Positions 12,787 to 33,761 of a stretch of 38,157 bases of DNA are shown piece by piece. The notes below the pieces were generated by a model that saw only the letters and a list, made by a program, of their open reading frames with translations, did no database searches and was not told where the DNA came from. This DNA is from Lentzea tibetensis (GTDB lineage: Bacteria > Actinomycetota > Actinomycetes > Mycobacteriales > Pseudonocardiaceae). The stretch lies in NCBI RefSeq assembly GCF_007845675.1, contig NZ_VOBR01000047.1:1-38157 (forward strand), given 5' to 3'. The first letter of the stretch is position 1. Every line of letters begins with the position of its first letter. The translations under genes were made by a program, and so were the position numbers.

Positions 12787-13518
12787 TCACAGCTCGGCGA
12801 TCATCTCCGCGGCGATGGCCTTCGCGGCCTCCTCGAACTCCGGGACGTCCGGCCGCGTCGGTGAGAACAGGCCGACGTCCCAGCCGATGTAGTCGACGTT
12901 CACCACCTTGTCGCCCTTGCGCACCACGACCTCGATGCCGGTGAACGCCGACGTCGTGGTCATCAGCACCGCGGTGCTCTGGTCGCCGATGTCGAGGTCC
13001 TTGACCTGGATCTGGCCCTGGTTGTTGGCCTTGGCCATGGTCACCTGCTCGTCGAACGTCCGCTGCCCGTCCTTCGACTCGTAGACGTAGACGTTCAACG
13101 TGCGCAGACCCTCGCCGTCCTTGCCCTTGGTCTGGCCCCACCCGCAGTTCGTCGTCGTCTCGTCGCCGATCTTGTTCTCGTTGGAGCTGCCGGACGGGTT
13201 CGTGGCGCGCGCCTTCGCCAGTGCCGCCTCGGAGACGTTGCCGCAGACGCCGGGCATCTTGGCGTTGGTGTAGGGCTGGCCCCGGTCCTTGTGCGCGGAG
13301 GTGTAGATGACCGCCGCGGTGGCCGCGCCGCCGAGCACGAGCACGCCGGCGATGATGCCGATGACGAGCGGTGCCTTGTTCTTCTTGGGCGGCACGGGGG
13401 GACCCCAGCCGGGAGGCGGTTGCCGAGGGGGCCAGCCGGGAGGCGGCTGCTGGGGCTGGTGCTGCCAGCCGGGCGGTGGTTGCTGTGGCTGGTGCTGCCA
13501 GCCGGGTGGTGCGTTCAC
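12787..13518 (-). CDS. Membrane-anchored extracellular protein, paralogue 1 of 3
   Basis: This 243-residue protein begins with a cytoplasmic Pro/Gly/Gln/Trp segment holding repeated PPPGW motifs (residues 5-40), then KKNK, one membrane span (about 50-70) and an extracytoplasmic domain. That domain has two conserved cysteines (C92 in the MPGVCGN motif and C124 in NCGWG) that are probably disulphide-bonded. The spacing of the Cys and CxW pattern resembles DUF3558-type secreted domains, but I do not assign it. The GTG at 13518 has GGGGGAAG six bases upstream. It is the last gene of a three-gene cluster of diverged paralogues (12787, 13535, 14175) separated by 1-16 bases. Function unknown. Confidence 0.75.
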   Translation of the reverse strand: MNAPPGWQHQPQQPPPGWQHQPQQPPPGWPPRQPPPGWGPPVPPKKNKAPLVIGIIAGVLVLGGAATAAVIYTSAHKDRGQPYTNAKMPGVCGNVSEAALAKARATNPSGSSNENKIGDETTTNCGWGQTKGKDGEGLRTLNVYVYESKDGQRTFDEQVTMAKANNQGQIQVKDLDIGDQSTAVLMTTTSAFTGIEVVVRKGDKVVNVDYIGWDVGLFSPTRPDVPEFEEAAKAIAAEMIAEL

Positions 13519-13534
13519 TGGTGCTTCCCCCTGG

Positions 13535-14173
13535 TCAGGACTTCGCGAAAACCTGTGCCGCGGCCTGGCTGACGAGCTTCTTCCACTCCTCGACGTCCGG
13601 CTGCTTCGCCGAAAGGAGCCCCGCGTCCCAGCCGCTGTAGTCGATCCTGACGTAGCGCCCGCCGGACCGCACCGCGTACGACACGGTCGTGAAGCTGCTG
13701 CCGCCCTTGCCGACGGTGATCGCGCCCTCGCCCGTCTTCTCGACGGAGCTGCCGGACTGCTCGAACGCGACGAGCTCCTGCTCGGCCAGCCGTTCCTCGC
13801 GGTACGTGCGGATCCAGACGTTCAGCGACCGCCTGCCGTCGCCGTCCCTGCCCTCGGTCTGGCCCCAGTTGCACGAGGTGGCGGAGGCGTCCGGCGACTC
13901 GACGTGGCTGGAGCTGCTGGCGATCGGGTTCGTGACCCGCATGCGCTGGAGCGTGTCCTGGCCGATGGCGTCGCACTTCGCGGGCAGCGCCTCGGCGCCG
14001 GGCGGCGTGCCGTGGTCGCGGTGCGTCTGGACGTACAGCCAGCCGACGGCACTCACGCCGGCGGCGAGCATGCCCGCGACGATGAGCACGGCGACGACCG
14101 GGCCCTTGTTCTTCTTCGGTGGGTGTCCCCACCCAGGTGGTGGTGGCTGTTGCCAGCCCGCCGGTGCGCTCAC
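13535..14173 (-). CDS. Membrane-anchored extracellular protein, paralogue 2 of 3
   Basis: This 212-residue protein has the same layout as its neighbours: a short Pro/Trp-rich cytoplasmic start (PPPPGWGHPPKKNKG), one membrane span (about 24-44) and an extracellular domain with a LPAKC motif, a CNWGQTEGRDGDGRRSLNVW segment and the ending YSGWDAGLLSAKQPDVEEW. These segments align with NCGWGQTKGKDGEGLRTLNV and IGWDVGLFSPTRPDVPEF of paralogue 1, which shows gene duplication. The GTG at 14173 lies one base after the stop of the upstream gene, with GGGGGAG just upstream, so the two are coupled. Function unknown. Confidence 0.75.
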   Translation of the reverse strand: MSAPAGWQQPPPPGWGHPPKKNKGPVVAVLIVAGMLAAGVSAVGWLYVQTHRDHGTPPGAEALPAKCDAIGQDTLQRMRVTNPIASSSSHVESPDASATSCNWGQTEGRDGDGRRSLNVWIRTYREERLAEQELVAFEQSGSSVEKTGEGAITVGKGGSSFTTVSYAVRSGGRYVRIDYSGWDAGLLSAKQPDVEEWKKLVSQAAAQVFAKS

Positions 14174-14174
14174 T

Positions 14175-14759
14175 TCACTCCCCCAGGAGTTCTTCGACGA
14201 CCTTCCTCGTGATCCGCTCACCTTCTTCCACCGGGAACGGCCGGTCGAAGAAGAACCCGCGATCCGCGCCACGGTAGATCACCTTGTAGACGCGTGTGTC
14301 CCGAAGTACGAGGAGCGTGACCTGCATGTTGTCGTCGGGCATGCGGTCGGCCGCGGTGGCCCGGTCGCCGAGCCCGGTGACGACGCGCTCGTCGGGCTGG
14401 CGCTGGTCGCTGAACGTCCGCTCGGCCTCGGCGCGCTTGCCGTGGTCGTAGACGTGGATGGCGAGGATCCGCCGGTCGATGCCGTCCGCGTCCACCGTCT
14501 GCCGCCAGAAGCAGTGCGTGTGCCGGACCAGCTCGAGCCGGTTCGGGTCCGGTTGCTGCACCAGTGAGGGGTTGCTGACCCGCGCTTCTTTCTTGAGCGC
14601 GTCGCTGATGGAGCAGTTCGAGGGCAGCGTCTCGCCCGTCGGCGGCTGGCCGATGGGGCGGGTGTACGCGACGTAGAGCGCGCCGAACAGGCCGGTGGCG
14701 CCGAGCAGCACAACGGCGCTGAGCAGGCAGGCGAGCTTGCCACGGGTCAGGCGGATCAT
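14175..14759 (-). CDS. Membrane-anchored extracellular protein, paralogue 3 of 3
   Basis: This 194-residue protein has a basic N-terminus (MIRLTRGK), one membrane span (about 9-29) and an extracellular domain. It shares with its two neighbours the LPSNC motif, the CFWRQTVDADGIDRRILAI segment and a similar C-terminal fold, but lacks the PPGW-rich cytoplasmic region. It is the most diverged of the three. The start is uncertain: ATGs at 14759, 14777 and 14813 all lack a clear ribosome site. It is the first gene of the minus-strand cluster and is divergent from the SOS operon; the LexA box at 14865 lies about 105 bases upstream. Confidence 0.65.
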   Translation of the reverse strand: MIRLTRGKLACLLSAVVLLGATGLFGALYVAYTRPIGQPPTGETLPSNCSISDALKKEARVSNPSLVQQPDPNRLELVRHTHCFWRQTVDADGIDRRILAIHVYDHGKRAEAERTFSDQRQPDERVVTGLGDRATAADRMPDDNMQVTLLVLRDTRVYKVIYRGADRGFFFDRPFPVEEGERITRKVVEELLGE

Positions 14760-14822
14760 CGCGGAGCAGTGTGTCATCCGTTGCGCCGTGCGGCTTACCC
14801 AGATCGGGTGCATCGGGAGGCA

Positions 14823-14853
14823 TTGACAGCGGGGTGGCCCGACGCGCTAACCT
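14823..14853 (+). promoter_or_regulatory. Promoter of the imuA'-imuB-dnaE2 operon
   Basis: A perfect -35 TTGACA (14823-14828) is followed by a -10 TAACCT (14848-14853). The 19-bp spacing is long, though taking TGACAG as the -35 gives 18. The predicted start near 14860 places the LexA box directly at the start of the transcript, where bound LexA would block transcription. Confidence 0.55.
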
Positions 14854-14862
14854 GTCCCCGTT

Positions 14863-14882
14863 GTTCGAACGCATGTTCGAAC
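14863..14882. promoter_or_regulatory. LexA (SOS) box
   Basis: TCGAAC-GCAT-GTTCGA at 14865-14880 matches the actinobacterial/Gram-positive SOS box TCGAAC-N4-GTTCGA with no mismatch. The palindrome extends one G-T and A-C step further to GTTCGAAC on both sides (14863-14882). It sits between the promoter and the first gene of the mutasome operon, so the operon should be LexA-repressed and DNA-damage inducible. Confidence 0.93.
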
Positions 14883-14955
14883 AGACTTGGAGTCGCCGAA
14901 CTTCCCGCGGTGGCCGCGCTCAGGGGTGCGCGCGGTCGGGACGGGAGGTGGGCAG

Positions 14956-15654
14956 GTGTCGACGTCGGCTACAGCGACGCTGGTCGCGCTCGGGGTGAAC
15001 CCGGCCAGCGAGCTGACGGGGACGACTGCCGACCAGACCACGGGGCGGGTCCTGCCGGTTCGCGGGGAACTGGCGGACCTGCTGCCGTGGGGCGGCTTGC
15101 GACGGGGCAGCACGGTGTCCGTGGGCGGATCAACATCGTTGCTGCTCGCGTTGCTGGCGGGCGCGACCGCGGACGGCTGTTGGGCGGCCGTGGTCGGCCT
15201 GCCGCATCTCGGTGTGCTCGCCGCGGCCGAACTGGGCGTGGCGGTACCCAGGCTCGCGCTCGTCCCGCGACCGGGTGGGGAGCCCGGCGCGGTGATCGCC
15301 GCGCTGCTCGACGGCATCGACCTCGTGGCGGTGGAGGTCACGAGGTCGGTGTCGCCCAGCCTCGCGCGGCGGCTTTCCGCGCGAGCTCGTCAGCGCAAGG
15401 CCGTGCTGCTGGCGTTCGGCAGCTGGCCCGGTGCCGACGTCGAGCTGCACGTCGTCGGGACGCGCTGGGAGGGACTCGGCCGGGGCCACGGGAAGCTCCG
15501 CTCGCAGACGCTCACCGTGCGGGTCGGTGGCCGCGGTGCCGCGGCTCGGCCACGACACGTCGAGCTCGATCTGGTCGGCGGCGGGAAGGTCGTCCTCCAA
15601 GGTGACGACTGGAACGGTGCGCCCGCCAGGAAGGGGCCGACATGCGCCTCCTGA
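14956..15654 (+). CDS. imuA': ImuA' mutasome accessory protein (RecA-like)
   Basis: This 232-residue protein is the first gene of the SOS mutasome operon and fits ImuA', a RecA-fold partner that bridges ImuB and DnaE2 in translesion synthesis. The core (about 40-190) has the strand pattern of RecA-like proteins, but the loop where Walker A would lie reads VGGSTSLLLA (56-65) and has no Lys, so ATP hydrolysis looks unlikely. I chose the GTG at 14956 because GGGAGG lies 7 bases upstream; a TTG at 14887 is closer to the LexA box but has no ribosome site. It overlaps imuB by 13 bases. Confidence 0.85.
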   Translation: MSTSATATLVALGVNPASELTGTTADQTTGRVLPVRGELADLLPWGGLRRGSTVSVGGSTSLLLALLAGATADGCWAAVVGLPHLGVLAAAELGVAVPRLALVPRPGGEPGAVIAALLDGIDLVAVEVTRSVSPSLARRLSARARQRKAVLLAFGSWPGADVELHVVGTRWEGLGRGHGKLRSQTLTVRVGGRGAAARPRHVELDLVGGGKVVLQGDDWNGAPARKGPTCAS

Positions 15655-17150
15655 TGGTCTGGTGCCCGGACTGGCCGGTGATCGCCGCCGCCGCGACGGA
15701 GTCACTCCCACCGCACGTGCCCGCCGCCGTGGCCAAGGGCAACGCGATCGTCGCCTGCTCGGCCATCGCCCGAGCCGAAGGCGTCCGCAGAGGCATGCGC
15801 AAACGCCAGGCCCAGGAACGCTGCCCGGAACTGAAGGTGTTCGAGGCGGACCCGACGAGAGACGCCAGGCTGTTCGAACCGGTGGCCGCGGCGGTGGAGG
15901 AACTGGCACCGGGCATCGAGGTCGTCCGCCCCGGCCTGGTCGCGGTGGCCGCGAAGGGGCCGCTCGGCTACTTCGACGGCCCGGAACGGGCAGCGGAACG
16001 CGTGGTGGACCACGTCGCGCACACGGCGGGCGTCGAGGCGCAGGTGGGCATCGCGGAAGGCCTGTTCGCCGCGACGCTGGCCGCGCACCGGGGAGTGATC
16101 GTCCCGGAGGGCGGGAGTGCGGAGTTCCTCGCCCCGCTGGGCATACAGGAGCTGAACGACCCGGACCTGGTGGACCTGTTGCGCCGCCTGGGTTTGCGCA
16201 CGCTCGGTGCGTTCGCCGCACTGCCGGAACGCGCCGTCGCGGACCGCTTCGGCGGACCCGCGGTGCAAGCCCACCGACGAGCGCGGGCACTGGAGGACCG
16301 GCCCGTCGACAAGCGCACACCGCCCGAGGACCTCGAGGTGGTGCAACAGTTCGACCCACCGGTCGAGCGCGTCGACCAGGCCGCGTTCGCCGCGAAAGCC
16401 CTCGCGGAACGGCTGCACGCCGAGCTGACCGCCAAGGGGTTCGCGTGCACCAGGCTCGGCATCCACGCGAACACCGAGAACGACGAGGAGCTGCACCGGG
16501 TGTGGCGGTGCGCGGAACCGTTGACACCGCGCGGAATCGCAGACCGGGTGCGCTGGCAGCTCGACGGCTGGCTCACCCGTGAGGCGCTCACCGCGGGCGT
16601 CACCACGCTCAGGCTCGTCCCCGAGGAGCTCGTGGACGCGGCGGCACTGCAGTTCGGGCTGTGGGGCCACGACCAGGGAGCGGAACGGGCGGCGCGCGCA
16701 CTCGTGCACGTGCAGGGCCTGCTGGGCCCGGAAGGCGTGTTCACCGCGGTGCTCGGCGGGGGAAGAGGACCGGAGGACCAGATCAAGCTCGTCCCGTGGG
16801 GCGACGAGAGGACGCCGCGGCACGACCCCGCCCAGCCTTGGCCCGGACGGCTCAACGGTCCTTCTCCGGCAACGGTGAAGAGCCGATCGGCCACCGTTGT
16901 GGACAACGCAGGTCAGGACATAGGTGTGACCGGACGCAACGAACTGACTGGCGCACCAATGCAATTCGCGGTGAACGGGGGACCACTTCAGGACGTGGTT
17001 GCGTGGTCGGGTCCGTGGCCGGTGGACGAGAGGTGGTGGGAACCGGACACGGCGCGCCGCGCGGCCCGGTTGCAGCTGATCGCAGGAGGAACAGCGTTCC
17101 TGCTCGTCCGCGAGGACGGCGAATGGACGGTGGAAGGGATGTACGACTGA
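15642..17150 (+). CDS. imuB: ImuB, catalytically dead Y-family polymerase homologue
   Basis: ImuB is the hub protein of the mutasome: it has a Y-family polymerase fold but recruits ImuA', DnaE2 and the beta clamp instead of polymerising. The 502 residues start RLLMVWCPDWPVIAA, where active Y-family enzymes have an Asp-containing metal motif; here the acidic residues are missing, and LGYFDG (108-113) replaces the second catalytic segment. The little-finger region is about 230-335. QFGLWG (337-342) matches the QLxLWG-type clamp-binding motif of mycobacterial ImuB. The C-terminal 150 residues are the partner-binding region. GGAAGGGG precedes the ATG. Its stop overlaps the next small gene (TGATG). 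Confidence 0.93.
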   Translation: MRLLMVWCPDWPVIAAAATESLPPHVPAAVAKGNAIVACSAIARAEGVRRGMRKRQAQERCPELKVFEADPTRDARLFEPVAAAVEELAPGIEVVRPGLVAVAAKGPLGYFDGPERAAERVVDHVAHTAGVEAQVGIAEGLFAATLAAHRGVIVPEGGSAEFLAPLGIQELNDPDLVDLLRRLGLRTLGAFAALPERAVADRFGGPAVQAHRRARALEDRPVDKRTPPEDLEVVQQFDPPVERVDQAAFAAKALAERLHAELTAKGFACTRLGIHANTENDEELHRVWRCAEPLTPRGIADRVRWQLDGWLTREALTAGVTTLRLVPEELVDAAALQFGLWGHDQGAERAARALVHVQGLLGPEGVFTAVLGGGRGPEDQIKLVPWGDERTPRHDPAQPWPGRLNGPSPATVKSRSATVVDNAGQDIGVTGRNELTGAPMQFAVNGGPLQDVVAWSGPWPVDERWWEPDTARRAARLQLIAGGTAFLLVREDGEWTVEGMYD

Positions 17151-17272
17151 TGTTCGACGACTGGTTCGAGACGGGGACGCAGGACCCCGCGTACACGACC
17201 GAGTTCGGCTGGGAACCCTTGCCGGACAACGTGATTCCGCTCCCGCGACGGGCGCCTGACGAGACCGTCTGA
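17150..17272 (+). CDS. 40-residue protein inside the mutasome operon
   Basis: This small gene encodes 40 residues and lies exactly between imuB and dnaE2. Its ATG overlaps the imuB stop by one base (TGATG at 17148-17152) and its own stop overlaps the dnaE2 ATG in the same way (17270-17274), so all three are translationally coupled. GGAAGGGA lies 10 bases upstream. The peptide is acidic and aromatic at its N-terminus (MFDDWFETGTQDP), with GWEPLPDNVIPLPRR in the second half. It has no membrane segment or signal peptide. The seamless fit is strong evidence for a real gene. I know no family; a small adaptor of DnaE2 or ImuB is an inference from position. Confidence 0.7.
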   Translation: MFDDWFETGTQDPAYTTEFGWEPLPDNVIPLPRRAPDETV

Positions 17273-20200
17273 TGGGCTGGAACAACCCGCCCGTCCGCTG
17301 GCGGGAGCTCGAACGCGCGCTCTCCGGCAAACCGTTCGAGCAGCAGGGCGACGGCGGCGACAGTCCGGCGTGGACACATCACCGCGACCGCTACGTCGCG
17401 CCGTCCGAGCTCGAGCTCAGGGTCGACGAACGGGCCACGACGCGGACGCGCGTGCCCTACGCCGAGCTGCACTGCCACTCCAACTTCAGCTTCCTCGACG
17501 GCGCCAGCCATCCCGAGGAACTGGTGGAGGCGGCCCACCAGCTCGGCCTCGACGCGATCGCGCTGACCGACCACGACGGCATGTACGGCGTGGTCCGGTT
17601 CGCCGAGGCCGCCAAGGAGCTCGGCGTGAAGACGGTGTTCGGCGCCGAGCTGAGCATCGGGCTGGAGACCGTCCCGAACGGCGTCGCCGACCCCGAAGGC
17701 GACCACCTGCTCCTGCTCGCCACCAGGGACGACGGCTACCACCGGCTGTGCCGCACCATCACCACCGGCCAGCTCGCCCGCGGCAGCGAGAAGGGCAAAC
17801 CGCAGTACTCGCTGGATGAGATCGCCGAGGACACGCGTGACCACGTCGTCGTGCTCACCGGCTGCCGCAAGGGTTCCGTGCGGCGCGCACTGGACCGCGA
17901 GGGTCCCGCGGCCGCCATCGCGGAACTGCGCAGGCTGGTCGCGCTGTTCGGCGCGGAACGCGTGTTCGTCGAGCTCGTCGACCACGGCTACCCCGACGAC
18001 AGCACGCGCAACGACCTGCTCGACGCCATGGCCGCCGAGCTCGGGCTGCCGACGGTCGCGACGAACGCCGTGCACTACGCGACCGTCGGCCGCGGACGGC
18101 TGGCCGCCGCCATGGCCGCGGTGCGCGCGAGACGCAGCCTCGACGAGATGGCGGGCTGGCTGCCGCCCGCGCCCGCCGCGTTCCTGCGCTCCGGCGAGGA
18201 GATGGCCCGCCGGTTCGCCCGCTTCCCCGGCGCCGTGCACCGCGCCGCGCTGCTCGGCGTGCAGTGCGCGTTCGACCTGCGGCTCGTCGCACCGAAACTG
18301 CCGCCGTTCGACGTGCCCGAAGGGCTCGACGAGGACGCGCACCTGCGCCAGCTCACCCACCGCGGCGCGGTGCACCGCTACGGCACGCCCGAGCAGAACC
18401 CCAAGGCCTACCGGCAGATCGAGCACGAGCTGAAGGTCATCTCCGAGCTCGGCTTCCCCGGCTACTTCCTCGTCGTCCACGACATCGTCGACTTCTGCCT
18501 GCGTCACGACATCCTGTGCCAGGGCAGGGGATCGGCCGCGAACTCGGCGGTGTGCTTCGCGCTCGGCATCACGAACGTCGACGCGGTCAAGTTCGACCTG
18601 CTCTTCGAACGCTTCCTCGCACCCGCCCGCGACGGGCCACCGGACATCGACCTCGACATCGAGTCCGACCGGCGCGAGGAGGTGATCCAGTACGTCTACA
18701 CGAAGTACGGCCGCAGACACGCCGCGCAGGTCGCGAACGTGATCAGCTACCGGGCCAGGTCCGCGGTGCGCGACATGGCTCGCGCGCTCGGCCACAGCCC
18801 CGGCCAGCAGGACGCGTGGAGCAAGCAGATCGACCGCTGGGGCCCGCTGCGCACCACCACGGACGACTGCGAGATCCCGCGGTCCGTGCTGGACATGGCC
18901 GCGCAGCTGGAGAACTTCCCGCGCCACCTGGGCATCCACTCCGGCGGCATGGTCATCTGCGACCGCCCGGTCAGCGAGGTGTGCCCGGTCGAGCGCGCCC
19001 GGATGGACAAGCGCACGGTCCTGCAGTGGGACAAGGACGACTGCGCGTCCATCGGGCTGGTGAAGTTCGACCTCCTCGGCCTCGGCATGCTCTCCGCGCT
19101 GCACTACGCGATCGACCTGGTGCGCGAGCACGAGGACGTCCAGGTCGACATGTGGCAGATCGACCTCACCGACCAGCACGTCTACGCGATGCTGCAGAAG
19201 GCGGACTCGGTCGGCGTGTTCCAGGTGGAGAGCCGCGCGCAGATGGCCACGCTGCCCCGGCTGAAGCCGCGCGACTTCTACGACCTGGTCGTCGAGGTCG
19301 CGCTGATCAGGCCAGGCCCCATCCAGGGCGGCTCGGTGCACCCGTACATCCGGCGCCGCAACAAGGTCGAGGAGTGGGAGCACGACCACCCGCTGCTGGC
19401 GAACGCGCTGGAGAAGACCTACGGCGTGCCGCTGTTCCAGGAGCAGCTGATGCAGATCGCGGTCGACGTCGGCGGCTTCACCGCCGCCGAGGCCGACGAG
19501 CTGCGCCGCGCGATGGGCGCCAAGCGGTCCACCGCGCGGATGGAACGGCTGCGCGAACGGTTCTACGCGGGCTGCGCCGCCAACGACATCGGCGAGGAGC
19601 TGGCAGGCCGGATCTACGCGAAGCTCCTGGCGTTCGCCAACTTCGGCTTCCCGGAAAGCCACGCGCTGTCGTTCGCGCACCTCGTGTTCGTCAGCGCCTA
19701 CTTCAAGCTCTACCACCCGGCCGCGTTCTGCGCGGCACTGCTGCGCGCGCAGCCGATGGGCTTCTACTCGCCGCAGTCGCTGGTCGCGGACGCCCGCAGG
19801 CACGGGGTGACCGTGCTCGGCCCGGACGTCAACGCGTCGCTCCCGCATGCCACGCTGGAGGTCGTCGACGCCAAGCAGGCCGTGCGCATCGGGCTCACCG
19901 CCGTGCGCACGATCAGCCAGAAGATCGCGGACAGGATCGTTGCCGCGCAACCGTTCCGCGACATGGTCGACTTCGGTGAACGAGTGCAGCTCACCACCGC
20001 TCAGGTCGAGGCGCTGGCCACCGCGGGCGCCTTCGCGTGCTTCGGCGTCGAACGGCGCTCGGCGCTGTGGGCGGCGGGCGCGGTCGCCGCGATCCGCCAG
20101 GACCGCCTGCCGGGCACCGAGGTCGGCACCGTCGCACCCGCACTGCCGGGCATGGACGACGTCGAGCTCGCGTCCGCCGACGTGTGGGCCACCGGCCTGT

Positions 20201-20565
20201 CACCGGACAGCTTCCCGACCCAGTTCGTCCGCGCCCGCCTCGACTCGCTCGGCGCGTTGCCGGTGACGTCGCTGGGGTCGGTCGAACCGGGCACGCGGGT
20301 GCTGATCGGCGGCGCCGTGACGCACCGGCAGCGGCCCGCGACCGCGGGCGGCGTCACGTTCCTCAACATCGAGGACGAGACCGGGATGGTGAACGTCGTG
20401 TGCACCACCGGGCTGTGGGCCCGGTACCGGCGGGTCGCGCGCACCAGCTCGGCGCTGCTGGTGCGCGGGATCGTCGAGTCCGCCGAGGGCGTGGTCAGCA
20501 TCCAGGCAGATCGGTTGCAACACCTCGACCTGCGGATCCCGTCACGGTCGCGCGACTTCCGCTGA
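17272..20565 (+). CDS. dnaE2: Error-prone DNA polymerase DnaE2
   Basis: This 1097-residue C-family polymerase is the catalytic subunit of the SOS mutasome and copies damaged templates with low fidelity. It has an N-terminal PHP domain (YAELHCHSNFSFLDG, 63-77), the polymerase active site with PDIDLDIES (about 456-464), finger and thumb regions, a helix-hairpin-helix segment (FANFGFPESHALSFAHLVF, about 785-803) and a C-terminal OB fold (about 985-1090). Length is normal for the family and no intein is present. The ATG overlaps the stop of the 40-residue gene. The 3' end overlaps the convergent gene at 20542 by 24 bases. Expression should follow the LexA box at 14865. Confidence 0.96.
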   Translation: MGWNNPPVRWRELERALSGKPFEQQGDGGDSPAWTHHRDRYVAPSELELRVDERATTRTRVPYAELHCHSNFSFLDGASHPEELVEAAHQLGLDAIALTDHDGMYGVVRFAEAAKELGVKTVFGAELSIGLETVPNGVADPEGDHLLLLATRDDGYHRLCRTITTGQLARGSEKGKPQYSLDEIAEDTRDHVVVLTGCRKGSVRRALDREGPAAAIAELRRLVALFGAERVFVELVDHGYPDDSTRNDLLDAMAAELGLPTVATNAVHYATVGRGRLAAAMAAVRARRSLDEMAGWLPPAPAAFLRSGEEMARRFARFPGAVHRAALLGVQCAFDLRLVAPKLPPFDVPEGLDEDAHLRQLTHRGAVHRYGTPEQNPKAYRQIEHELKVISELGFPGYFLVVHDIVDFCLRHDILCQGRGSAANSAVCFALGITNVDAVKFDLLFERFLAPARDGPPDIDLDIESDRREEVIQYVYTKYGRRHAAQVANVISYRARSAVRDMARALGHSPGQQDAWSKQIDRWGPLRTTTDDCEIPRSVLDMAAQLENFPRHLGIHSGGMVICDRPVSEVCPVERARMDKRTVLQWDKDDCASIGLVKFDLLGLGMLSALHYAIDLVREHEDVQVDMWQIDLTDQHVYAMLQKADSVGVFQVESRAQMATLPRLKPRDFYDLVVEVALIRPGPIQGGSVHPYIRRRNKVEEWEHDHPLLANALEKTYGVPLFQEQLMQIAVDVGGFTAAEADELRRAMGAKRSTARMERLRERFYAGCAANDIGEELAGRIYAKLLAFANFGFPESHALSFAHLVFVSAYFKLYHPAAFCAALLRAQPMGFYSPQSLVADARRHGVTVLGPDVNASLPHATLEVVDAKQAVRIGLTAVRTISQKIADRIVAAQPFRDMVDFGERVQLTTAQVEALATAGAFACFGVERRSALWAAGAVAAIRQDRLPGTEVGTVAPALPGMDDVELASADVWATGLSPDSFPTQFVRARLDSLGALPVTSLGSVEPGTRVLIGGAVTHRQRPATAGGVTFLNIEDETGMVNVVCTTGLWARYRRVARTSSALLVRGIVESAEGVVSIQADRLQHLDLRIPSRSRDFR

Positions 20566-21471
20566 CGGCAGCCTGGCGTCGAGGTACTTCCTCGCGACCT
20601 CGAGCGGTTCGGCGATGACGGAGGCCTCGACCTGCTCACCCGGCCGGCGCCAGTCGTACTTCTCGGGACCTCCCGGCTCGGTGGACGTGAGGGCGGCGCA
20701 GAGCCGGGCCTGCGTGACCAGCGCCCGCCACAGCACGGGGTGGCTGCGCGGGTGGAAGTCGCGGAACAGGTCGGTGACCGGCGCGCATGCGAGGTGCAGC
20801 GCGCTCGCTCGGTCGGAGTACGCCTCGTCGAACTCGCCGAACCGCATGACACGCGCGGTGCGCTCGCCCACCTGGACGATCAGCGCCTGTCCCGCGGTCT
20901 CGACCAGACCCGAGGGCAGGCCCTGCAGATAGGGCTCATCGGCGGGGTGCTCCATCTCGTACTCCGTCTCGGCGTACGGGTCGTACGGCAGCTCGGGCTG
21001 CTGCGCCGCGAACGTGAAGTGGTCGGTGAGCGCCCACGCCAGCAGCTTGGCCATGCCGTACCGGGTGCGGATCTCCGGATCGAGGCGGAGGTCGACCCGC
21101 GTCAGCCCGTCCTGCATGAGGTGGAAGATCGCCACCGGCGCGAGGACGCGGTGCACGATCGACCTCAGGTAGTACCCGTCGTCCGACAACCACCCCCGGC
21201 CGGGCTCGAGGTCACCGTTCCGCGCCGTCCTGGCCAGCCCCGCGATCCGGCTCTGCAGGTCCTCGCCGCGTTCGCCGAGCTGGAAGAGGAGCGGCTCGGT
21301 CACCTCGTACAGGCGTTTCCGCGCTTCGTACTCGTAGTCGAGCCGGGCCTGCCGGTGGGCGGACTGGGACTGGATCCGGCGCTGCGTGGTGTAGCTCAGT
21401 CCTGCGCTGGCCAGCGCCACCGTGATCGACGTCGCCGATGCGACGAGTGCGACAACAACTGCGGGTTCCAC
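20542..21471 (-). CDS. Membrane-anchored hypothetical protein
   Basis: This 309-residue protein starts with one membrane span (about residues 4-26, VVVALVASATSITVALASAG), followed by a basic helical segment (TTQRRIQSQSAHRQARLDYEYEARKR, long helix or coiled coil) and a mostly helical cytoplasmic domain. I recognise no motif. The GTG at 21471 has GAGAGG six bases upstream; a longer frame extends to 21657 but its first 62 residues look non-coding. The 3' end runs 24 bases into the end of dnaE2 on the other strand, so the two transcripts are antisense there. Function unknown. Confidence 0.65.
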   Translation of the reverse strand: MEPAVVVALVASATSITVALASAGLSYTTQRRIQSQSAHRQARLDYEYEARKRLYEVTEPLLFQLGERGEDLQSRIAGLARTARNGDLEPGRGWLSDDGYYLRSIVHRVLAPVAIFHLMQDGLTRVDLRLDPEIRTRYGMAKLLAWALTDHFTFAAQQPELPYDPYAETEYEMEHPADEPYLQGLPSGLVETAGQALIVQVGERTARVMRFGEFDEAYSDRASALHLACAPVTDLFRDFHPRSHPVLWRALVTQARLCAALTSTEPGGPEKYDWRRPGEQVEASVIAEPLEVARKYLDARLPSAEVARP

Positions 21472-21625
21472 GGCGCACCTCTCGGCCAGTGTCTGCCAAC
21501 CTTGGTCATCATGGTGCAGATCCAGTCGTACGACCCCGACTGGCAGCAGGCCGGACTCACCGGGCGTGCGCAGGGACGCCGAGCGCGGCAGCGAGATCGT
21601 TCGGCAGGCACACGGTGCACCCGCG

Positions 21626-22585
21626 CTAAGACGGTGTTGTTCGACGGGGTTCAGCACGAGTTCGAGAACTGGCGAGCCCGAGCACGATGATCGCCACCGC
21701 GCCGAACACGACGTCGCCCGCGAGGTCGGGTCCGCCCAGCTCCGGCTTGACCGGGAACGCGGTCCACACGTAGGTCAGCGTCGCACCGGCGGCCAGTGCG
21801 AAGCGGTGCCGCTGGTCCCAGCCCTGCCCGCGTGACCACCGGGACACCAGCAGGACGCCCGAAACCACCAGCAGGCACCACACCGAGACACCGATCCACT
21901 CGTACCAGCCGGCCGTGATGAGCACCGACGGTCCCCAGTAGAGGCTGGTGCCCAGCAGGGACACCACGCCGACGAGCCACGGCGATGGCGCGACACCGGC
22001 CACCGGGCCGGAACGCGGCCGAACCCGGAGTGCGGCCACCACCAGCAGCGCGATCACGACGGTGATCCCGGCCAGCTGGGCCGGGGAGGCGATGAAGTGC
22101 TCCTCCGAGTAGTTGCCGAGGAACACGAGCGTCGCGCCGAGCGTGAACAGCACGAAGACCACGGTCAGGCCGGTGCGGCCGAGCCACGGCGTGGTCCGCC
22201 GCGCGGGCACGAAGGTCTCCACGATCGCGATCGGCACGCAGATGCTCCACACCGCGTGCAGCGCGAGGATCGCCTGGGTCAGCTCGACGCTCATCCCCAG
22301 CGCGGGCAGGTACGACGGGCCGTGCAGCAGGTCCTGTCCCGCGTACGAGGGGTTCCACAGCAGCTGGTCGACCGGCCCCTCCTCGATCAACGCGTACGCG
22401 GCCGCCAGCAGGAACATCGTCGGCCAGCCCGCGAACCGTCTGCCCAGCTCGCGGACGAGCACCGCGCCGCAGCCGTAGAGCGGAGCCAGCAGCAGGCCGA
22501 GCCAGAGCTGGCCGAACCCGAGGTTCCCCAGCAGGTACTCGCCGACGAACGGCGCCAACAGGAACAAGCCGATGACCGGTGCCAA
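21626..22585 (-). CDS. Polytopic membrane protein beside a TetR regulator
   Basis: This 319-residue protein has about nine to ten membrane spans and no signal peptide. Conserved-looking polar residues inside or near the membrane include EE in LIEEGPVDQLLWNPSY (about 70-85), which could be functional; I cannot name a family. The start is uncertain: the TTG at 22585 has GGGGGA four bases upstream, and another in-frame TTG lies at 22597. It is divergent from the TetR gene at 22632 and a 24-bp inverted repeat covers the region between them, so the TetR protein probably controls it. A transporter or intramembrane enzyme are both possible. Confidence 0.65.
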   Translation of the reverse strand: MAPVIGLFLLAPFVGEYLLGNLGFGQLWLGLLLAPLYGCGAVLVRELGRRFAGWPTMFLLAAAYALIEEGPVDQLLWNPSYAGQDLLHGPSYLPALGMSVELTQAILALHAVWSICVPIAIVETFVPARRTTPWLGRTGLTVVFVLFTLGATLVFLGNYSEEHFIASPAQLAGITVVIALLVVAALRVRPRSGPVAGVAPSPWLVGVVSLLGTSLYWGPSVLITAGWYEWIGVSVWCLLVVSGVLLVSRWSRGQGWDQRHRFALAAGATLTYVWTAFPVKPELGGPDLAGDVVFGAVAIIVLGLASSRTRAEPRRTTPS

Positions 22586-22597
22586 CGCATCCCCCAA

Positions 22598-23429: not shown

Positions 23430-26400
23430 GTGTTCTTCCGGGTACTGGGTGCCGTCGGCGTCGTCCGTTCCGACGGCGCGCCGGTCGTGCTCCGTGCGGC
23501 GAAGCAACGCGTGCTGCTGTCCGCGCTGCTCCTCAACGCCAACGAGTGGGTGCGCGGCGACCAGCTGATCGACTTCATCTGGGGCGAGACGCCGCCGAGA
23601 TCGGCCGTCGCGAACCTCAAGACGTACGTGTGGGAGCTGCGCCGCCTCCTCGCCGAGGACCGGATCACCAGCGGCCAGGGCGGTTACCGCATCGCCGTCG
23701 CGCGCGACGAGCTGGACGTGTTCGTCTTCACCGACCAGGTGCGGCACGAGGAGTTCGCCGAGGCCTTGTCGCTGTGGCGCGGTGAACCGTTCGGCGAGTT
23801 GGCCGCGGGCGGCGTGGACGCGGTGCGCGGCAGGCTGCTGGAGTCGTGGTTCCACGCGCAGGAGGGACTCGCCGCCGCCGAGCTCGCGGCCGGCAGGCAC
23901 GCCCACGCCGTGGCGGCGCTGCGCGGGCTCGTCGCCGACCACCCGTTCCGCGAGGAGTCGCGCGGGATGCTGATGATGGCGCTGTACCGGGCGGGCAGGC
24001 AGGCGGAGGCGCTGGAGGTCTACGAGGACGGCCGCCGCGTGCTCGACGAGGAGCTCGGTCTGCTTCCCGGCGCCGAGCTGCGCAGGCTGCACTCCGAGAT
24101 CCTCAACCAGGACGTCGCACTGGACCTGCCGCGCCGCGTGCCGGTTCAGCTGCCCGCGGACGTGCGCGGCTTCACCGGCCGCGACGAGATGCTGCGCATG
24201 CTGGACGACGTGCTGGCAGGCACCTCGACGACCGTCGTGGTGTCCGCCATCGCGGGCACCGCCGGTGTCGGGAAGACCGCGCTGGCCGTGCACTGGGCGC
24301 ACCGCATCCGCAAGCACTTCCCGGACGGCCAGCTCTACCTGAACCTGCGCGGCCACGGCGCCGGCTCACCGCTCACGCCGGTGCAGGCGCTGGAGCGGTT
24401 GCTGACCGCGCTCGGCGTCGAGTCCGGCAAGTCCGTCGACGTCGACGAAGCCGCCGCCGCGTACCGCTCGGCACTGGCCGACCAGCGCGTGCTCGTGGTG
24501 CTGGACAACGCGTTCGACGCCGACCAGGTCCGCCCGCTGCTGCCGGGAACGCCCGGCTCGCTGGTGCTGATCACCAGCCGCAACCGGCTCGACGGCCTGG
24601 TCGCGCGGGACGGCGCGCAGCGGCTCGTGCTGGACGTGCTGAGCCGCAGGGACGCGCGCGGCGTGCTGGAGCAGGTGCTCGGCGCGTCACGGGTCAGCGC
24701 GGAACCGGAGGCCGTGCGCGAGCTGGTCGAGCTGTGCGCGCGGCTGCCACTGGCGTTGCGCATCGCGGCCGCGAACCTCCTGGCCAGGCCCGGACGTTCG
24801 GTCGCGGACTACGTCACCGAGCTGCGCGGCGGTGACCTGCTCGCCGCGCTGACCGTGCCCGGCGACCCGGACACGGCCGTCCGCGCCGCGCTCGACCTGT
24901 CGTACACGGCGATGGATCCGTTGGCGCGCAAGCTGTTCCGGCTCATGGGCCTGGTGCCTGGCCGGGACATCACACCTTCCGCGGTCACCGCGCTCGCGGA
25001 CATCTCCCAGCGGGACGCGGTGACCGGGCTGCAGGCCCTCGCTGCCGCGCATCTCGTCGACGAGCACGCGACCGGCCGGTTCACGTTCCACGACCTGCTG
25101 CGGCTCTGCGCGCTCGAGCGGTGCCGCGAGGAGGACCCGGTCGAGGCGCGCAACGCCGCGCTGGAGCGGATGGCGCTGCACTACGGGCTGATGGCGCGCG
25201 ATGTCATGCGCACGGTCGACCCCCGGCCGTACCGCGACCTGCTTGCCGGCGAGGGCACCGAGTTCCCCGACGAGCAGGCGGCCATGACGTGGCTCGACCG
25301 CGAGATGGCCAACCTCGTCGCCGTCGCGCAGGAGTCCGCGCAGCGCGGCAGCATCACCGTCGCCACCCAGTTGTGCGTCGCGCTCAGCAGCCACTTCGAG
25401 CGGCACCGCACGATGGTCGAGTGGATCGGCACCACCGAGGCGGTGCTCGCGGGGGCGTGCCGGGTGAACGACCTGACCGCGCAGGCGTACGGGTTGATGG
25501 GACTGGCCAGCGCGTACTGGAGCCAGTGCGAGTACAAGCAGGCGCTGGTGCTGCTCGAACAGGCCCGGCCGATCGTCGAGGCCGACGTGGAGATGCTGCG
25601 CACCCCGCTGCTCGCCAACTTCGGGCGCACCTACATCTCGATGGGGCGGCTGCGGGACAGCGCGGACTGCTACCGGCAGCTGCTGGAGCTGGCGCGGCAG
25701 ACGTCGAACCTGCCGTCACTGGTCGGCGCGCTCGCGATCTACGGCGACGTGCACTGGGAGCTCGGCGAGCTGCACCGGGCCTACGAGCTGCACACCGAGT
25801 CCATCGCGGTCGCGCACAGCGCCGGACTGCGCACCGGTGTCGCGCTCGGCGAGACCCACGCTGGCCGGTCCGCACAGGCACTCGGCCTGCTCGACCAGGC
25901 CGTCGAGCACTACCTCACCGGGCTCGACCTGTGCCGCGAGCAGGGCGACCCGGTCGAGGATGCGGGCAACCTCGCCAACCTCAGCGGCGCCTACCGCGAC
26001 CTCGGCCGGTACGACGACGCGCTGCGCACGGCACGGGAGTCCCTCGCGATCTCCACCCGCATCGGGATGCCGCGCACCCAGACGAGCGCGCGGCACGTGC
26101 TCGGCTCGACCTACTTCCTGCTGCACCGGTACGACGAGGCGCGCGTGGAGCTGGAGACGGCGCTCCACCTCTCGTCGTCGCATCCGCGCGGCCGCTGGGA
26201 CACCCTGGTCTCGCTGGCGGACCTGCACCACGCGCTCGGTGCGGCGGAGCGGGCACGTGACCTCGCCGAACAGGCGTTGGCAGGCAGCCGCGAGACCGGC
26301 CACCGGCTGATCTACGCGGAGGCGCTGCGGGTGCTCGCGGAGATCGACGGCGGAGAGCTCCAGCGCCTGGACGAAGCGCTGGAGCTGCACCGGCTTTCGG

Positions 26401-26450
26401 GCTATCGGTTGGGTGTGGAGCGCGTGCTCAGCTCTTCGCGTAGGTCATGA
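23430..26450 (+). CDS. AfsR/SARP family regulator with NB-ARC and TPR domains
   Basis: This 1006-residue regulator has four parts. Residues 1-90 form an OmpR-type winged helix. Residues 95-240 form the bacterial transcriptional activation domain (BTAD; FHAQEGLAAAELAAGRHAHA segment). Residues 250-540 form an NB-ARC/STAND ATPase with Walker A GTAGVGKTAL (about 276-285), Walker B VLVVLDNAF (about 353-361) and the LVLITSRNRL sensor. Residues 640-1000 form TPR repeats. Proteins of this type activate secondary metabolism or stress genes after ATP- and ligand-driven switching. The GTG at 23430 gives a complete winged helix, though no ribosome site is visible. No biosynthetic cluster is seen next to it, so the target is unknown. 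Its end overlaps the convergent reductase gene by 23 bases. Confidence 0.92.
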   Translation: MFFRVLGAVGVVRSDGAPVVLRAAKQRVLLSALLLNANEWVRGDQLIDFIWGETPPRSAVANLKTYVWELRRLLAEDRITSGQGGYRIAVARDELDVFVFTDQVRHEEFAEALSLWRGEPFGELAAGGVDAVRGRLLESWFHAQEGLAAAELAAGRHAHAVAALRGLVADHPFREESRGMLMMALYRAGRQAEALEVYEDGRRVLDEELGLLPGAELRRLHSEILNQDVALDLPRRVPVQLPADVRGFTGRDEMLRMLDDVLAGTSTTVVVSAIAGTAGVGKTALAVHWAHRIRKHFPDGQLYLNLRGHGAGSPLTPVQALERLLTALGVESGKSVDVDEAAAAYRSALADQRVLVVLDNAFDADQVRPLLPGTPGSLVLITSRNRLDGLVARDGAQRLVLDVLSRRDARGVLEQVLGASRVSAEPEAVRELVELCARLPLALRIAAANLLARPGRSVADYVTELRGGDLLAALTVPGDPDTAVRAALDLSYTAMDPLARKLFRLMGLVPGRDITPSAVTALADISQRDAVTGLQALAAAHLVDEHATGRFTFHDLLRLCALERCREEDPVEARNAALERMALHYGLMARDVMRTVDPRPYRDLLAGEGTEFPDEQAAMTWLDREMANLVAVAQESAQRGSITVATQLCVALSSHFERHRTMVEWIGTTEAVLAGACRVNDLTAQAYGLMGLASAYWSQCEYKQALVLLEQARPIVEADVEMLRTPLLANFGRTYISMGRLRDSADCYRQLLELARQTSNLPSLVGALAIYGDVHWELGELHRAYELHTESIAVAHSAGLRTGVALGETHAGRSAQALGLLDQAVEHYLTGLDLCREQGDPVEDAGNLANLSGAYRDLGRYDDALRTARESLAISTRIGMPRTQTSARHVLGSTYFLLHRYDEARVELETALHLSSSHPRGRWDTLVSLADLHHALGAAERARDLAEQALAGSRETGHRLIYAEALRVLAEIDGGELQRLDEALELHRLSGYRLGVERVLSSSRRS

Positions 26451-31163: not shown

Positions 31164-33761
31164 GTGTCCGAGCCGAAGCCGTTGAACCCGACAGAGCAAG
31201 ACGCTCTGGTGAAGCAGATCGGCCTGACCCTGATGCGCGCCGCCCCGGAGGACTGGCGTCAGGTCGTCGCCGAGTACCGCGCAACCGGCAGGTACTTCGA
31301 GTTGGCCGCGGAGCTGAAGCTCGCGGACGGCTCGGTGCACGGCTGGGCGCCGCCGCAGGACGTCGCCGCGCTGTTCGCCCGCTTGCGCGCGGGCATGCAC
31401 CGCGAGGGTCGCGGCAGCTGGAGCAACGCCCGCTACCAGCTCGACCACCCGTCCAGCTACAACCTGGACTTCGACCGGGCCGAGCCCAAGTGGCAGACGC
31501 CCCCGCCGCAGCAGGCGTACGTCGACGAGATGCGCTTCTTCCCGCGCGTCGAGGAGAACGTGCCGGACTGGCTGCGCCGCAGGCTGGGGCCACCGCCTCC
31601 GCAGCAGCCGCCGCCTCCGCCGCCCCAGCAGGCACCGCCGCAGCGCGGGTTCCGCACCGCCCGCGTGTTCGACGGCGCCGGACCGAACGGCCGCCCGTCG
31701 GTCAACCGCCCGCCGGTGCCGGAGCACGAGCTGCAGCAGCTGCTCGACTACCTGGACGACGCGCCGGTCGCGGTCAGCGGCCGCGGCTTCGACGCGGACG
31801 TGCTCGCCGCCGACGCACCGCAGGTCGTGCCCGCCGGTTTCCAGACCGACGGCCACTGGATCTGGCCCGCCGCGGTCAGCTACTACCTGCGCGCCTACGG
31901 CGTTCCGCCGGAGGCCGAGCTGGTCGAACGAGTCAGATCGGCCGACTTCGAACTGCCCGAGGTGCCGGAGGACGCGAGGCTCGCCGCCGCGGCCAACCTC
32001 GGTGCCCCGGCCGCGCCTCCCGGCACCCAGCTGCCCGTCGCCGTGCTCCCGGCCGCCGAAGCCGACGAGCCCGACGAGCAGCCTGCCGAGGCCGGCGCGA
32101 CGCAGCTGTTCGAACCCGTCGAGGTCGAGCCCGAGCCGCAGGACGACGTCGCCGAGGACACCTCGCCCGACGAGCTCACCGAGACGGTGGAGGACCTCGT
32201 CGAACCCGCGCAGGAACCCGAGGAGCTCACCGACCGGACCGTCGTGGTCGGGCCGGTCGAGGACACCGCCAACCTGCCCGCCGTCGACGAACCCCAAGGA
32301 CCGCCTTATCGGGTGACTTTCGACGAGGACGGCGTCCCCGATCAGGTGGACGACCGGCGCCTGCGCGAGACCTACATGGACGGCATGGACCTGTTCGCGC
32401 CGCACGCGGACGAGCGTCCGCGTGTGGAAGCCGTGCAGGAGACCATGGCGTGGTCTCCCGACCAGGAGCACGACACCGCCGAGCAGGACGTCGTCCAGGA
32501 GACGATGGCGTGGTCCCCGGACGAGGTCGAGGAACGCCCGCAGCCAGACCCGGTGCAGGACACCATGGCCTGGTCCCCTGACCTGACCGAGGAACGCCCG
32601 CTGCCGGATCCCGTCCAGGACACGATGGCCTGGTCGCCCGAGCAGACCGAGGAACGGCCGCGGCCGGACGCGGTGCAGGACACCGCGGCGTGGTCGCCCG
32701 ACCTGTCGGACGACACCGCTCAGCAGGACGCCATCCAGGACACGATGGCCTGGAGCCCGGTGCTCGACGAGCCGGAGCCGGAGACCGCCGCCGAGCTCAC
32801 CGAGGAGCACCCGGTCGTCGAAGCCGACGAGCCGGACCTCGCCGAGCCGGAGCTGATCCCCACCACCGGGCACTTCGACGTGGCCGCGGACCTGCGCGAC
32901 CACACGACAGAGTTCGACGCGGTCGTCGAGCAGCAGCCCGAACCGGAACCCGAGCCGGAGCCCGAACCCCGCCAGGTCTCCTCCGAGGAGGAGACCAAGA
33001 TCGTCGGCACGCGCCGCGCGCTCGACGACCTCGCGGTCCCGCAGGGCGCGTACCGGATCGGCGGCGAGCCGTCGGACCGGACGTGGCACGTGCAGCTGGA
33101 CGGCGACGCGTGGCAGGTCGCCTGGTTCGACCACGGCCCGAAGCACGCGCAGCGGTTCGAACGGGTCGAGGACGCGTCCGCGTACCTCATCGGCAAGCTC
33201 GTCCTCGGCAACTTCCGCAACGTGCCGAGGCCGCCGCCCCCGCGTCCGCAACCGCCGGCGACCAACGGCTTCCGCGAGGAGCCGCGCCGCCCGGTCCTGC
33301 CGCCGCGCCCGCCCGAGCCGGTGGCGCCCGTCGCGCCGCCTGCCGCACCTCCGCTCGCCGTGCCACCGCCCGTGCGGCAGGAGGAGCAGCCCGCCAAGCG
33401 GTCGTGGCCGATCTCGCCGATGAACGGTGAGCCGCCGCTGACGTTGTTCCGCCACAAGCAGATGTTCGAGCTGCCCGCGGGCACCGAGGTCGACCGGTAC
33501 GGCGACCCGACCGGCAACCTCGCCTACGTGGCGGGCACGCCGTTCCCCGAGCGGTCGCTCGTGCCGTCGTGGGTCAAGCGGCCGTACCGCGTGTACCGGC
33601 TGCGCAGGCCCGTCGAGGTGCTGACGGGTGTCGCGGTGCCGTGGTTCGAGCAGCCCGGTGGCGGCACGGCCTACCTGTTCCCCAAGTCGCTGGAGGACAT
33701 GGTCGCCGACGGCGCGCTGGTCGAGATCACGGCCGACGTCCACTCGATGCCCAAGCAGTAG
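31164..33761 (+). CDS. Multidomain protein with C-terminal TNT (NADase) domain
   Basis: This 865-residue protein has no signal peptide. Residues 1-135 resemble the YezG/DUF600 immunity family (EDWRQVVAEYRATGRYFE, SWSNARYQLD, FFPR). A Pro-rich linker follows; then QTDGHWIWPAAVSYYLRAYG (about 227-246), a long acidic disordered region (270-600) with six 20-residue repeats, a small domain (about 628-690; DRTWHVQLDGDAWQVAWF), a second Pro-rich linker, and a TNT domain (about 755-862; LPAGTEVDRYGDPTGN, YRVYRL, WFEQPGGGTAYL). TNT domains are NAD+ glycohydrolases named after the CpnT toxin; the Arg in VDRYG and Gln in EQPGGG correspond to conserved residues. No neighbouring gene looks like a separate immunity factor. 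The GTG at 31164 has GAGAGAAG 8 bases upstream. Confidence 0.85.
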   Translation: MSEPKPLNPTEQDALVKQIGLTLMRAAPEDWRQVVAEYRATGRYFELAAELKLADGSVHGWAPPQDVAALFARLRAGMHREGRGSWSNARYQLDHPSSYNLDFDRAEPKWQTPPPQQAYVDEMRFFPRVEENVPDWLRRRLGPPPPQQPPPPPPQQAPPQRGFRTARVFDGAGPNGRPSVNRPPVPEHELQQLLDYLDDAPVAVSGRGFDADVLAADAPQVVPAGFQTDGHWIWPAAVSYYLRAYGVPPEAELVERVRSADFELPEVPEDARLAAAANLGAPAAPPGTQLPVAVLPAAEADEPDEQPAEAGATQLFEPVEVEPEPQDDVAEDTSPDELTETVEDLVEPAQEPEELTDRTVVVGPVEDTANLPAVDEPQGPPYRVTFDEDGVPDQVDDRRLRETYMDGMDLFAPHADERPRVEAVQETMAWSPDQEHDTAEQDVVQETMAWSPDEVEERPQPDPVQDTMAWSPDLTEERPLPDPVQDTMAWSPEQTEERPRPDAVQDTAAWSPDLSDDTAQQDAIQDTMAWSPVLDEPEPETAAELTEEHPVVEADEPDLAEPELIPTTGHFDVAADLRDHTTEFDAVVEQQPEPEPEPEPEPRQVSSEEETKIVGTRRALDDLAVPQGAYRIGGEPSDRTWHVQLDGDAWQVAWFDHGPKHAQRFERVEDASAYLIGKLVLGNFRNVPRPPPPRPQPPATNGFREEPRRPVLPPRPPEPVAPVAPPAAPPLAVPPPVRQEEQPAKRSWPISPMNGEPPLTLFRHKQMFELPAGTEVDRYGDPTGNLAYVAGTPFPERSLVPSWVKRPYRVYRLRRPVEVLTGVAVPWFEQPGGGTAYLFPKSLEDMVADGALVEITADVHSMPKQ
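32433..32792 (+). repeat. Six in-frame 60-bp repeats in the TNT gene
   Basis: Units begin at 32433, 32493, 32553, 32613, 32673 and 32733. Each encodes V/IQ(D/E)T(M/A)AWSP followed by about 11 acidic, variable residues; the sixth is diverged after WSP. The exact 60-base period indicates recent tandem duplication. Confidence 0.9.

Follow-up and report, generated by a model that had tools for sequence, protein, structure and literature searches.

The ImuA'-ImuB-DnaE2 mutasome causes damage-induced mutation in several bacteria, and its Y-family homologue ImuB is, judging from the ImuB literature, presumably catalytically inactive. The mycobacterial mutasome minimally consists of three proteins (PMC10421592, accessible part), and the accessible part of PMC12926913 treats the actinobacterial ImuA2-ImuB2-DnaE2A system as well as other small subunits. 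A peptide coupled to imuB is mentioned neither there nor in the accessible parts of PMC6511836, PMC10421592 and PMC3919608. The listings and abstracts of the open-access literature, a scope to which subscription papers do not belong, likewise contain no paper describing an imuB-coupled small protein. Hence, the small protein described below, which many soil actinomycetes possess, is apparently undescribed so far.

The imuA'-imuB-dnaE2 cassette and its small open reading frame

The window analyzed here is a stretch of 38,157 nucleotides from Lentzea tibetensis (contig NZ_VOBR01000047.1). In it, imuA', imuB and dnaE2 are adjacent and a LexA-type SOS box is located upstream of the first gene (Table 1); the true start of imuA' is probably a later GTG within the open frame. 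The initial annotation had placed a small gene between imuB and dnaE2 with one-base overlaps, and this was borne out, since the neighbors are as named and TGATG occurs at both joints, each time with a single base common to the small open reading frame (ORF) and its neighbor (the imuB stop or the dnaE2 start). We scanned the window for TCGAAC-N4-GTTCGA, which we take to be the actinobacterial LexA box, with up to two mismatches and obtained six matches, of which the one upstream of imuA' is the sole match with no mismatch. A further SOS-box-like string (TCGACGACTGGTTCGA, two mismatches, 17154-17169) is situated within the start of the small ORF and may be there by chance, given that the six matches compare with 1.9 expected. 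Among the 38 named loci having the small ORF (see below), 36 possess a GAAC-N4-GTTC site at most 1.5 kb upstream of the imuB match. Lying beside imuB and behind a predicted LexA box, the small gene thus conforms to the earlier proposal that it is made with the SOS mutasome.

Table 1. Features of the imu cassette in the window
Feature	Positions	Strand	Basis and details
SOS (LexA) box TCGAACGCATGTTCGA	14865..14880	+	exact match to TCGAACNNNNGTTCGA, TCGAAC-N4-GTTCGA; upstream of imuA'
imuA'	14887..15654	+	open frame; NCBIfam NF058630 over residues 65-216, 185.8 bits, cut-off 65
imuB, Y-family homologue	15642..17150	+	stop TGA 17148-17150; Pfam IMS PF00817, E 1.3e-15
GGAAGGG, Shine-Dalgarno-like	17132..17138	+	in imuB codons GAA GGG, 11 nt before the small-ORF start
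Small ORF, 40 aa	17150..17272	+	ATG 17150-17152, stop TGA 17270-17272; product MFDDWFETGTQDPAYTTEFGWEPLPDNVIPLPRRAPDETV
Acidic-aromatic N-terminus MFDDWF	17150..17167	+	comparison with 77 homologues
Conserved tail VIPLPRRAPDE	17231..17263	+	position table over 77 homologues
dnaE2	17272..20565	+	NCBIfam PRK05672, 1506 bits; ATG 17272 overlaps the small-ORF stop by one base

The imu cassette is flanked by four long open frames on the minus strand (243, 245, 371 and 323 aa, within 12787-14272 and 20542-22597), none of which has a Pfam match at E 1e-4; the longest one (371 aa) overlaps the dnaE2 end. Elsewhere, the window harbors a 1006-aa SARP-like regulator with Trans_reg_C, BTAD, NB-ARC and TPR repeats (23430-26450) and an 865-aa open frame ending in a Pfam TNT (tuberculosis necrotizing toxin) domain (31164-33761, E 4.6e-30).

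The peptide encoded by the small ORF has no match to Pfam or NCBIfam models. Five of six homologues were also without a Pfam match, and the single match of the sixth, Dioxygenase_N, is far below the cut-off. A PDB profile search with a profile of 32 homologues gave no match at E up to 10, and neither Pfam, NCBIfam nor the PDB profile relates the small protein to the UmuD, YolD or PPB2 type of small subunits. AlphaFold returned no fold for the peptide (mean pLDDT 68.5, pTM 0.18), which is expected of a disordered peptide and would be of no help on function. By inspection, the peptide contains no beta-clamp motif of the QxxL[FW] kind.

Occurrence of the small ORF and its partner gene

A direct search with the 40-mer gave matches in only 2 of the 25 Lentzea genomes although the ORF is present in 24 of them, the remaining Lentzea homologues being too short or too diverged for such a search. 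Hence, we used the neighboring genes as anchors. DnaE2 was located in all 25 Lentzea genomes and in 134 of 150 genomes of the Pseudonocardiaceae, the ImuB C-terminus in 161 of 200 genomes of this family. From these 161, 110 imuB ends were taken and joined by those of 14 more Lentzea genomes, giving 124 ends from 32 of 46 genera; the 51 ends left out were mostly weaker or partial matches, so that the counts hold for those examined. A second sample comprised 80 named imuB loci and a third, from a class-wide search, 47 imuB ends of other families, one of which is cut right after imuB. As a coupled short ORF we counted a frame of 20-170 aa with its start at -4 to +2 of the imuB stop.

A small ORF with the motif [IV]P.[PQ]R begins within a few bases of the imuB stop at 77 of the 124 ends, which represent 18 of the 32 genera; these 77 homologous ORFs are 21-157 codons long (median 42). 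The exception within Lentzea is Lentzea nigeriaca (G015), in which imuB overlaps dnaE2 directly with no ORF in between and whose genome, searched with the 25-residue homologue of the sister genome G012, yielded no copy elsewhere. Among the named loci, 38 of 80 possess the ORF, belonging to Lentzea, Saccharothrix, Umezawaea, Gandjariella, Actinokineospora, Prauserella, Qaidamihabitans, Actinophytocola, Kutzneria, Amycolatopsis and one record named Nocardia. The latter record (L306, Nocardia sp. NRRL S-836) apparently corresponds to G017, which groups in Lentzea, and has probably been misnamed. Amycolatopsis anabasis was left out of the count because of its degenerate tail, and the locus L274 ends before the end of imuB.

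The ORF was not found in a metagenome-assembled genome (MAG) labelled Actinophytocola (L324), in the Pseudonocardiales MAGs L261 and L268, or in the Saccharopolyspora, Micromonospora, Rhodococcus, Asanoa, Phytohabitans, Thermocrispum and Actinomycetospora records of the named list. The plasmid-borne imuB of Amycolatopsis sp. AA4 has no ATG or GTG at its stop, and the gene table, which is incomplete, lists no gene there. Apart from the one cut end, no coupled ORF of such kind is found at the 47 imuB ends of other families, and in 28 loci of other families imuB stops at its usual C-terminus with no added tail. Fusion of the tail motif into ImuB was considered and dismissed, as only one chance-like match appeared in 124 ImuB rows, some of them cut short. 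All seven Saccharopolyspora loci (L278, L281, L286, L290, L301, L315 and L322) are devoid of the ORF; there, two GAAC-N4-GTTC sites lie around the gap that separates imuB from dnaE2, which looks as though dnaE2 were under an SOS promoter of its own.

ORF presence is scattered over several ImuB lineages; on a quick tree built from 104 ImuB rows, at least seven changes are required, five of which are forced by starred branches. This pattern would fit an old gene that was repeatedly lost, with repeated gain as a second option. The initial annotation had regarded junctions that keep imuB and dnaE2 but lack the ORF as speaking against a gene. Such junctions do exist, namely in L. nigeriaca and in the genera g4, g13, g16, g36, g39 and g40, where imuB overlaps dnaE2 with no ORF. 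The absence of the ORF from L. nigeriaca and from the ends examined in 14 of the 32 family genera indicates that the protein is dispensable, but is not evidence that the frame is non-coding.

The small-ORF stop overlaps the dnaE2 start or is at most 4 nt away from it in 55 of the 77 cases. This would be in line with a translational spacer or coupler, i.e. an ORF that merely passes ribosomes from imuB to dnaE2 and whose sequence is irrelevant, as would the direct imuB-dnaE2 overlap in relatives, where the coupling is kept without the ORF, and an AAGGAA after the motif near the dnaE2 start of several Lentzea species, which could be the ribosome-binding site of dnaE2. However, a leader or spacer should always end at the next start codon, whereas 11 of the 77 ORFs have no dnaE2 start by motif within the 0.9-1.5 kb read and six more are separated from it by a gap of 21-755 nt. 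For these 11, the match coordinates show that dnaE2 follows imuB after about 0.8-1.0 kb in G052, G054 and G139. In Kutzneria (g19), dnaE2 is on the strand of imuB as well, at a distance of about 1.9 kb (G079), 2.9 kb (G160), 3.3 kb (G129), 3.7 kb (G145, K. buriramensis) and 15 kb (G042); these distances cover the five of six genomes in which both genes were located, the sixth (G175) being outside the set. Since the Kutzneria ORF stays behind imuB with dnaE2 1.9-15 kb off, the ORF belongs to imuB, and its constant partner, as judged from gene order, is the imuB end. The anchor is therefore imuB and not the imuB-dnaE2 junction named in the initial annotation, dnaE2 being remote in these five Kutzneria genomes and not found in two further genomes. 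Moreover, the tail of the small protein is conserved at the protein level over 18 genera with synonymous variation (see below), and a spacer has no need for a tail motif. The suggestion that the ORF is only a translational spacer is thus disfavored, and we regard it as quite improbable.

In G044 (L121) and G081 (L123) of the Saccharothrix group (g21), imuB has decayed to its C-terminal part and dnaE2 was not found, but the small ORF is intact. This would be compatible with an SOS peptide that is encoded in the operon but acts elsewhere, for instance on cell division, replication or proteolysis, and small SOS-induced peptides with such targets exist in other bacteria, e.g. SidA of Caulobacter. 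However, both genomes are close relatives and near-identical at the locus, so that the retention of the ORF says little and may only reflect a recent decay of imuB; a selection estimate from the pair was discarded as uninformative because the two are too similar. Further arguments against an action elsewhere are that the ORF is found beside imuB, a weak point as the search was made there by design, and that no transmembrane-like stretch is apparent by eye, unlike in many division inhibitors. We consider an action elsewhere to be rather unlikely.

Conservation of the tail, the N-terminus and the imuB end

The tail of the homologues follows the consensus [LV][IV]PxPR[RK][SA]P[DE]. Its core motif [LVIMAPS][IV]P.[PQ]R is present in 77 of the 82 coupled short ORFs at the 124 family ends, compared to 40 of 4951 like-sized ORFs of the 80 named loci, about 21 of which are real small ORFs by our own reading. 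The degenerate DNA pattern of the core motif has four matches in the own genome, the small ORF included, and the control has one. While the proline and the arginine of the tail are found in 77 of 77 homologues each, their constancy is no evidence because both are part of the selection regex. Outside this regex, a leucine or valine precedes the motif in 69 of the 77 homologues, an arginine or lysine follows it in 62 and an aspartate or glutamate is found at +8 in 72. The initial annotation had suggested a check of whether WEPLP and NVIPLP are conserved. Among the 77 homologues, WEPLP occurs only in the window and in the sister genome G020, and NVIPLP holds as the start of the tail, the real element being the entire consensus.

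The check for purifying selection that had been suggested was run on two levels. For 16 close Lentzea sequences (18 codons), we obtained a dN/dS of 0.35, with pN/pS values of 0.71 and 3.16 in the shifted frames. This is only moderate evidence for selection acting on the protein, and as the last imuB codons of Lentzea show few synonymous changes (pS 0.035), nucleotide-level constraint makes up part of the Lentzea conservation. The tail codons +6 to +8 have a pN/pS of 0.39 for pairs within a genus and of 0.54 for all pairs, as opposed to 1.65 and 1.37 for all pairs in the shifted frames. The linker directly before the tail varies in length and is unconstrained, with a pN/pS of 0.99 for pairs within a genus and of 1.36 for all pairs.

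The N-terminus of the peptide had been described as acidic and aromatic and had led to the suggestion of a short binding peptide, and the comparison supports this appearance. An acidic-aromatic start, defined as at least two aspartate or glutamate residues in positions 2-6 together with an early aromatic residue, recurs in 54 of the 77 homologues versus 1.0% of the 4951 background ORFs. It is scarce in the Saccharothrix group (1 of 10) and in the Actinophytocola group (g31; 0 of 5), and absent from four genera represented by a single sequence. Four of the five Actinophytocola-group homologues (L157, L159, L166 and L167) carry a cysteine-rich N-terminus, CxxC...C, which possibly binds metal, followed by the same tail.

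The Shine-Dalgarno-like site falls on a Glu-Gly pair in the last codons of imuB. At the 77 ORF-bearing imuB ends, the glutamate codon is GAA in 69 cases and the glycine codon GGG or GGA in all 77. In the 47 ends of other families, by contrast, GAG is found in 37 and the glycine is present in only 16. The 47 ends of the family without the ORF have GAA in 11 and GAG in 17 cases, and those among them running directly into dnaE2 also tend to be G-rich. With a looser list of Shine-Dalgarno-like strings, all 77 ORF-bearing ends match, as do 13 of the 47 family ends lacking the ORF and 26 of the 47 ends of other families. The bias fits the trace left by a ribosome site for the next start and hence counts for translation of the small ORF; it supports this without being proof.

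Since ORFs of 40 codons are common here (68 ORFs of at least 30 aa overlap positions 13000-22000 of the window), the frame could in principle have arisen by chance in a short high-GC gap and be no gene. The motif enrichment, the frame-specific constraint, the ribosome-binding codon bias and the fact that 18 genera have the frame right at the imuB stop all argue against such an origin, to which we give hardly any credence. That the small ORF is coding and conserved is instead well supported by the computation.

Proposed role and comparison with known mutasomes

The computed picture comprises the frame, its coupling, the tail, the ribosome-binding-like codon bias, the predicted LexA box and the patchy presence. 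An unfolded peptide with such a tail, encoded at the imuB end and under an SOS box, is most simply read as a linear-motif accessory. We therefore lean towards the view that the small ORF encodes a translated, SOS-controlled small protein and that the imuA'-imuB-(dnaE2) operon of the Pseudonocardiaceae would in this way yield a fourth, lineage-specific product, probably an extra helper of the mutasome. The peptide would be unfolded and would consist of an N-terminus that is often acidic-aromatic, a linker free to vary in sequence and length, and the conserved linear motif at the C-terminus. With the putative ribosome-binding site situated inside the imuB end, it would be produced together with ImuB. 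During the SOS response, it may then dock on ImuB, with ImuA' and DnaE2 as less likely partners, and tune how the mutasome is assembled, recruited or turned over. Its translation in vivo, its binding to the mutasome and the direction of its effect are what we infer from these features. Published models in which the small partners of other mutasomes insert an arm into the polymerase subunit (accessible parts of PMC12926913 and PMC11791011) make an ImuB-bound peptide plausible, but only by analogy. The idea that the peptide replaces the clamp motif of ImuB was rejected, because ImuB retains its Q..LW in most genera irrespective of the ORF.

The ImuB of the window was aligned with 26 ImuB rows of the family. 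In a contrast of ImuB columns between lineages with and without the ORF, P296 ranked first of 226 columns, followed by 246, 347 and 299. For P296, a mean of 3.46 of five independent pairs changed in the same direction and 0.01 in the opposite one, a contrast that cannot reach significance with only five pairs. P296 is present in 18 of 18 genera with the ORF (one of which also has serine) and is replaced in 9 of 14 genera without it; L. nigeriaca, devoid of the ORF, still has P296. From its position after a weak Pfam IMS_C stretch (residues 235-280, below the cut-off), P296 would be located within the little finger of ImuB. One may thus speculate that the peptide is a fourth subunit of the actinobacterial mutasome whose tail or arm lies on the little-finger side of ImuB, including P296, in the way modelled for the arms of UmuD' and YqjX on their polymerases, and which thereby gates the loading of DnaE2. 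We hold this specific version to be unlikely, but if it were true, lineages could switch damage-induced mutagenesis via gain or loss of one peptide.

A conserved and easily missed peptide from the imuB end is a natural candidate for a regulator or subunit of the mutasome. Its absence in one Lentzea species versus its presence in the other 24 genomes offers a ready natural experiment, and the family is a test case for unfolded peptides that tune the mutation rate.

When compared to the Mycobacterium-type ImuA2-ImuB2-DnaE2A cassette, the cassette of the window resembles it in the imuA'-imuB-...-dnaE2 order, the upstream SOS box and the flanking protein families, but differs in having a fourth small gene behind imuB. 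In a family with the same gene order (f2), which we take to be the Mycobacteriaceae, none of the 12 imuB ends readable downstream (13 in total) carries the ORF. The SRDF[H/R] tail of DnaE2 is comparable to the tail of the small protein in that it is a short, disordered and conserved C-terminal motif in the same complex (PMC3919608, accessible part), but their sequences differ. Of 30 DnaE2 C-termini, the 29 readable ones all end in SRDF[RHQ] with or without the small ORF, and one is out of frame. A mimicry of the DnaE2 tail (RIPSRSRDFR versus LIPLPRRAPDE) was dismissed, as the DnaE2 tail is alike in both cases. UmuD', YqjX/YolD and PPB2 are, according to the accessible parts of PMC12926913 and PMC11791011, likewise short partners encoded beside a mutasome polymerase gene and have a conserved terminal arm. 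They possess a folded domain or helices, except for a YolD variant of which only the N-terminal region is left, whereas the small protein of the imuB end has no predicted fold, does not match them in sequence and carries its strongest motif at the C-terminus.
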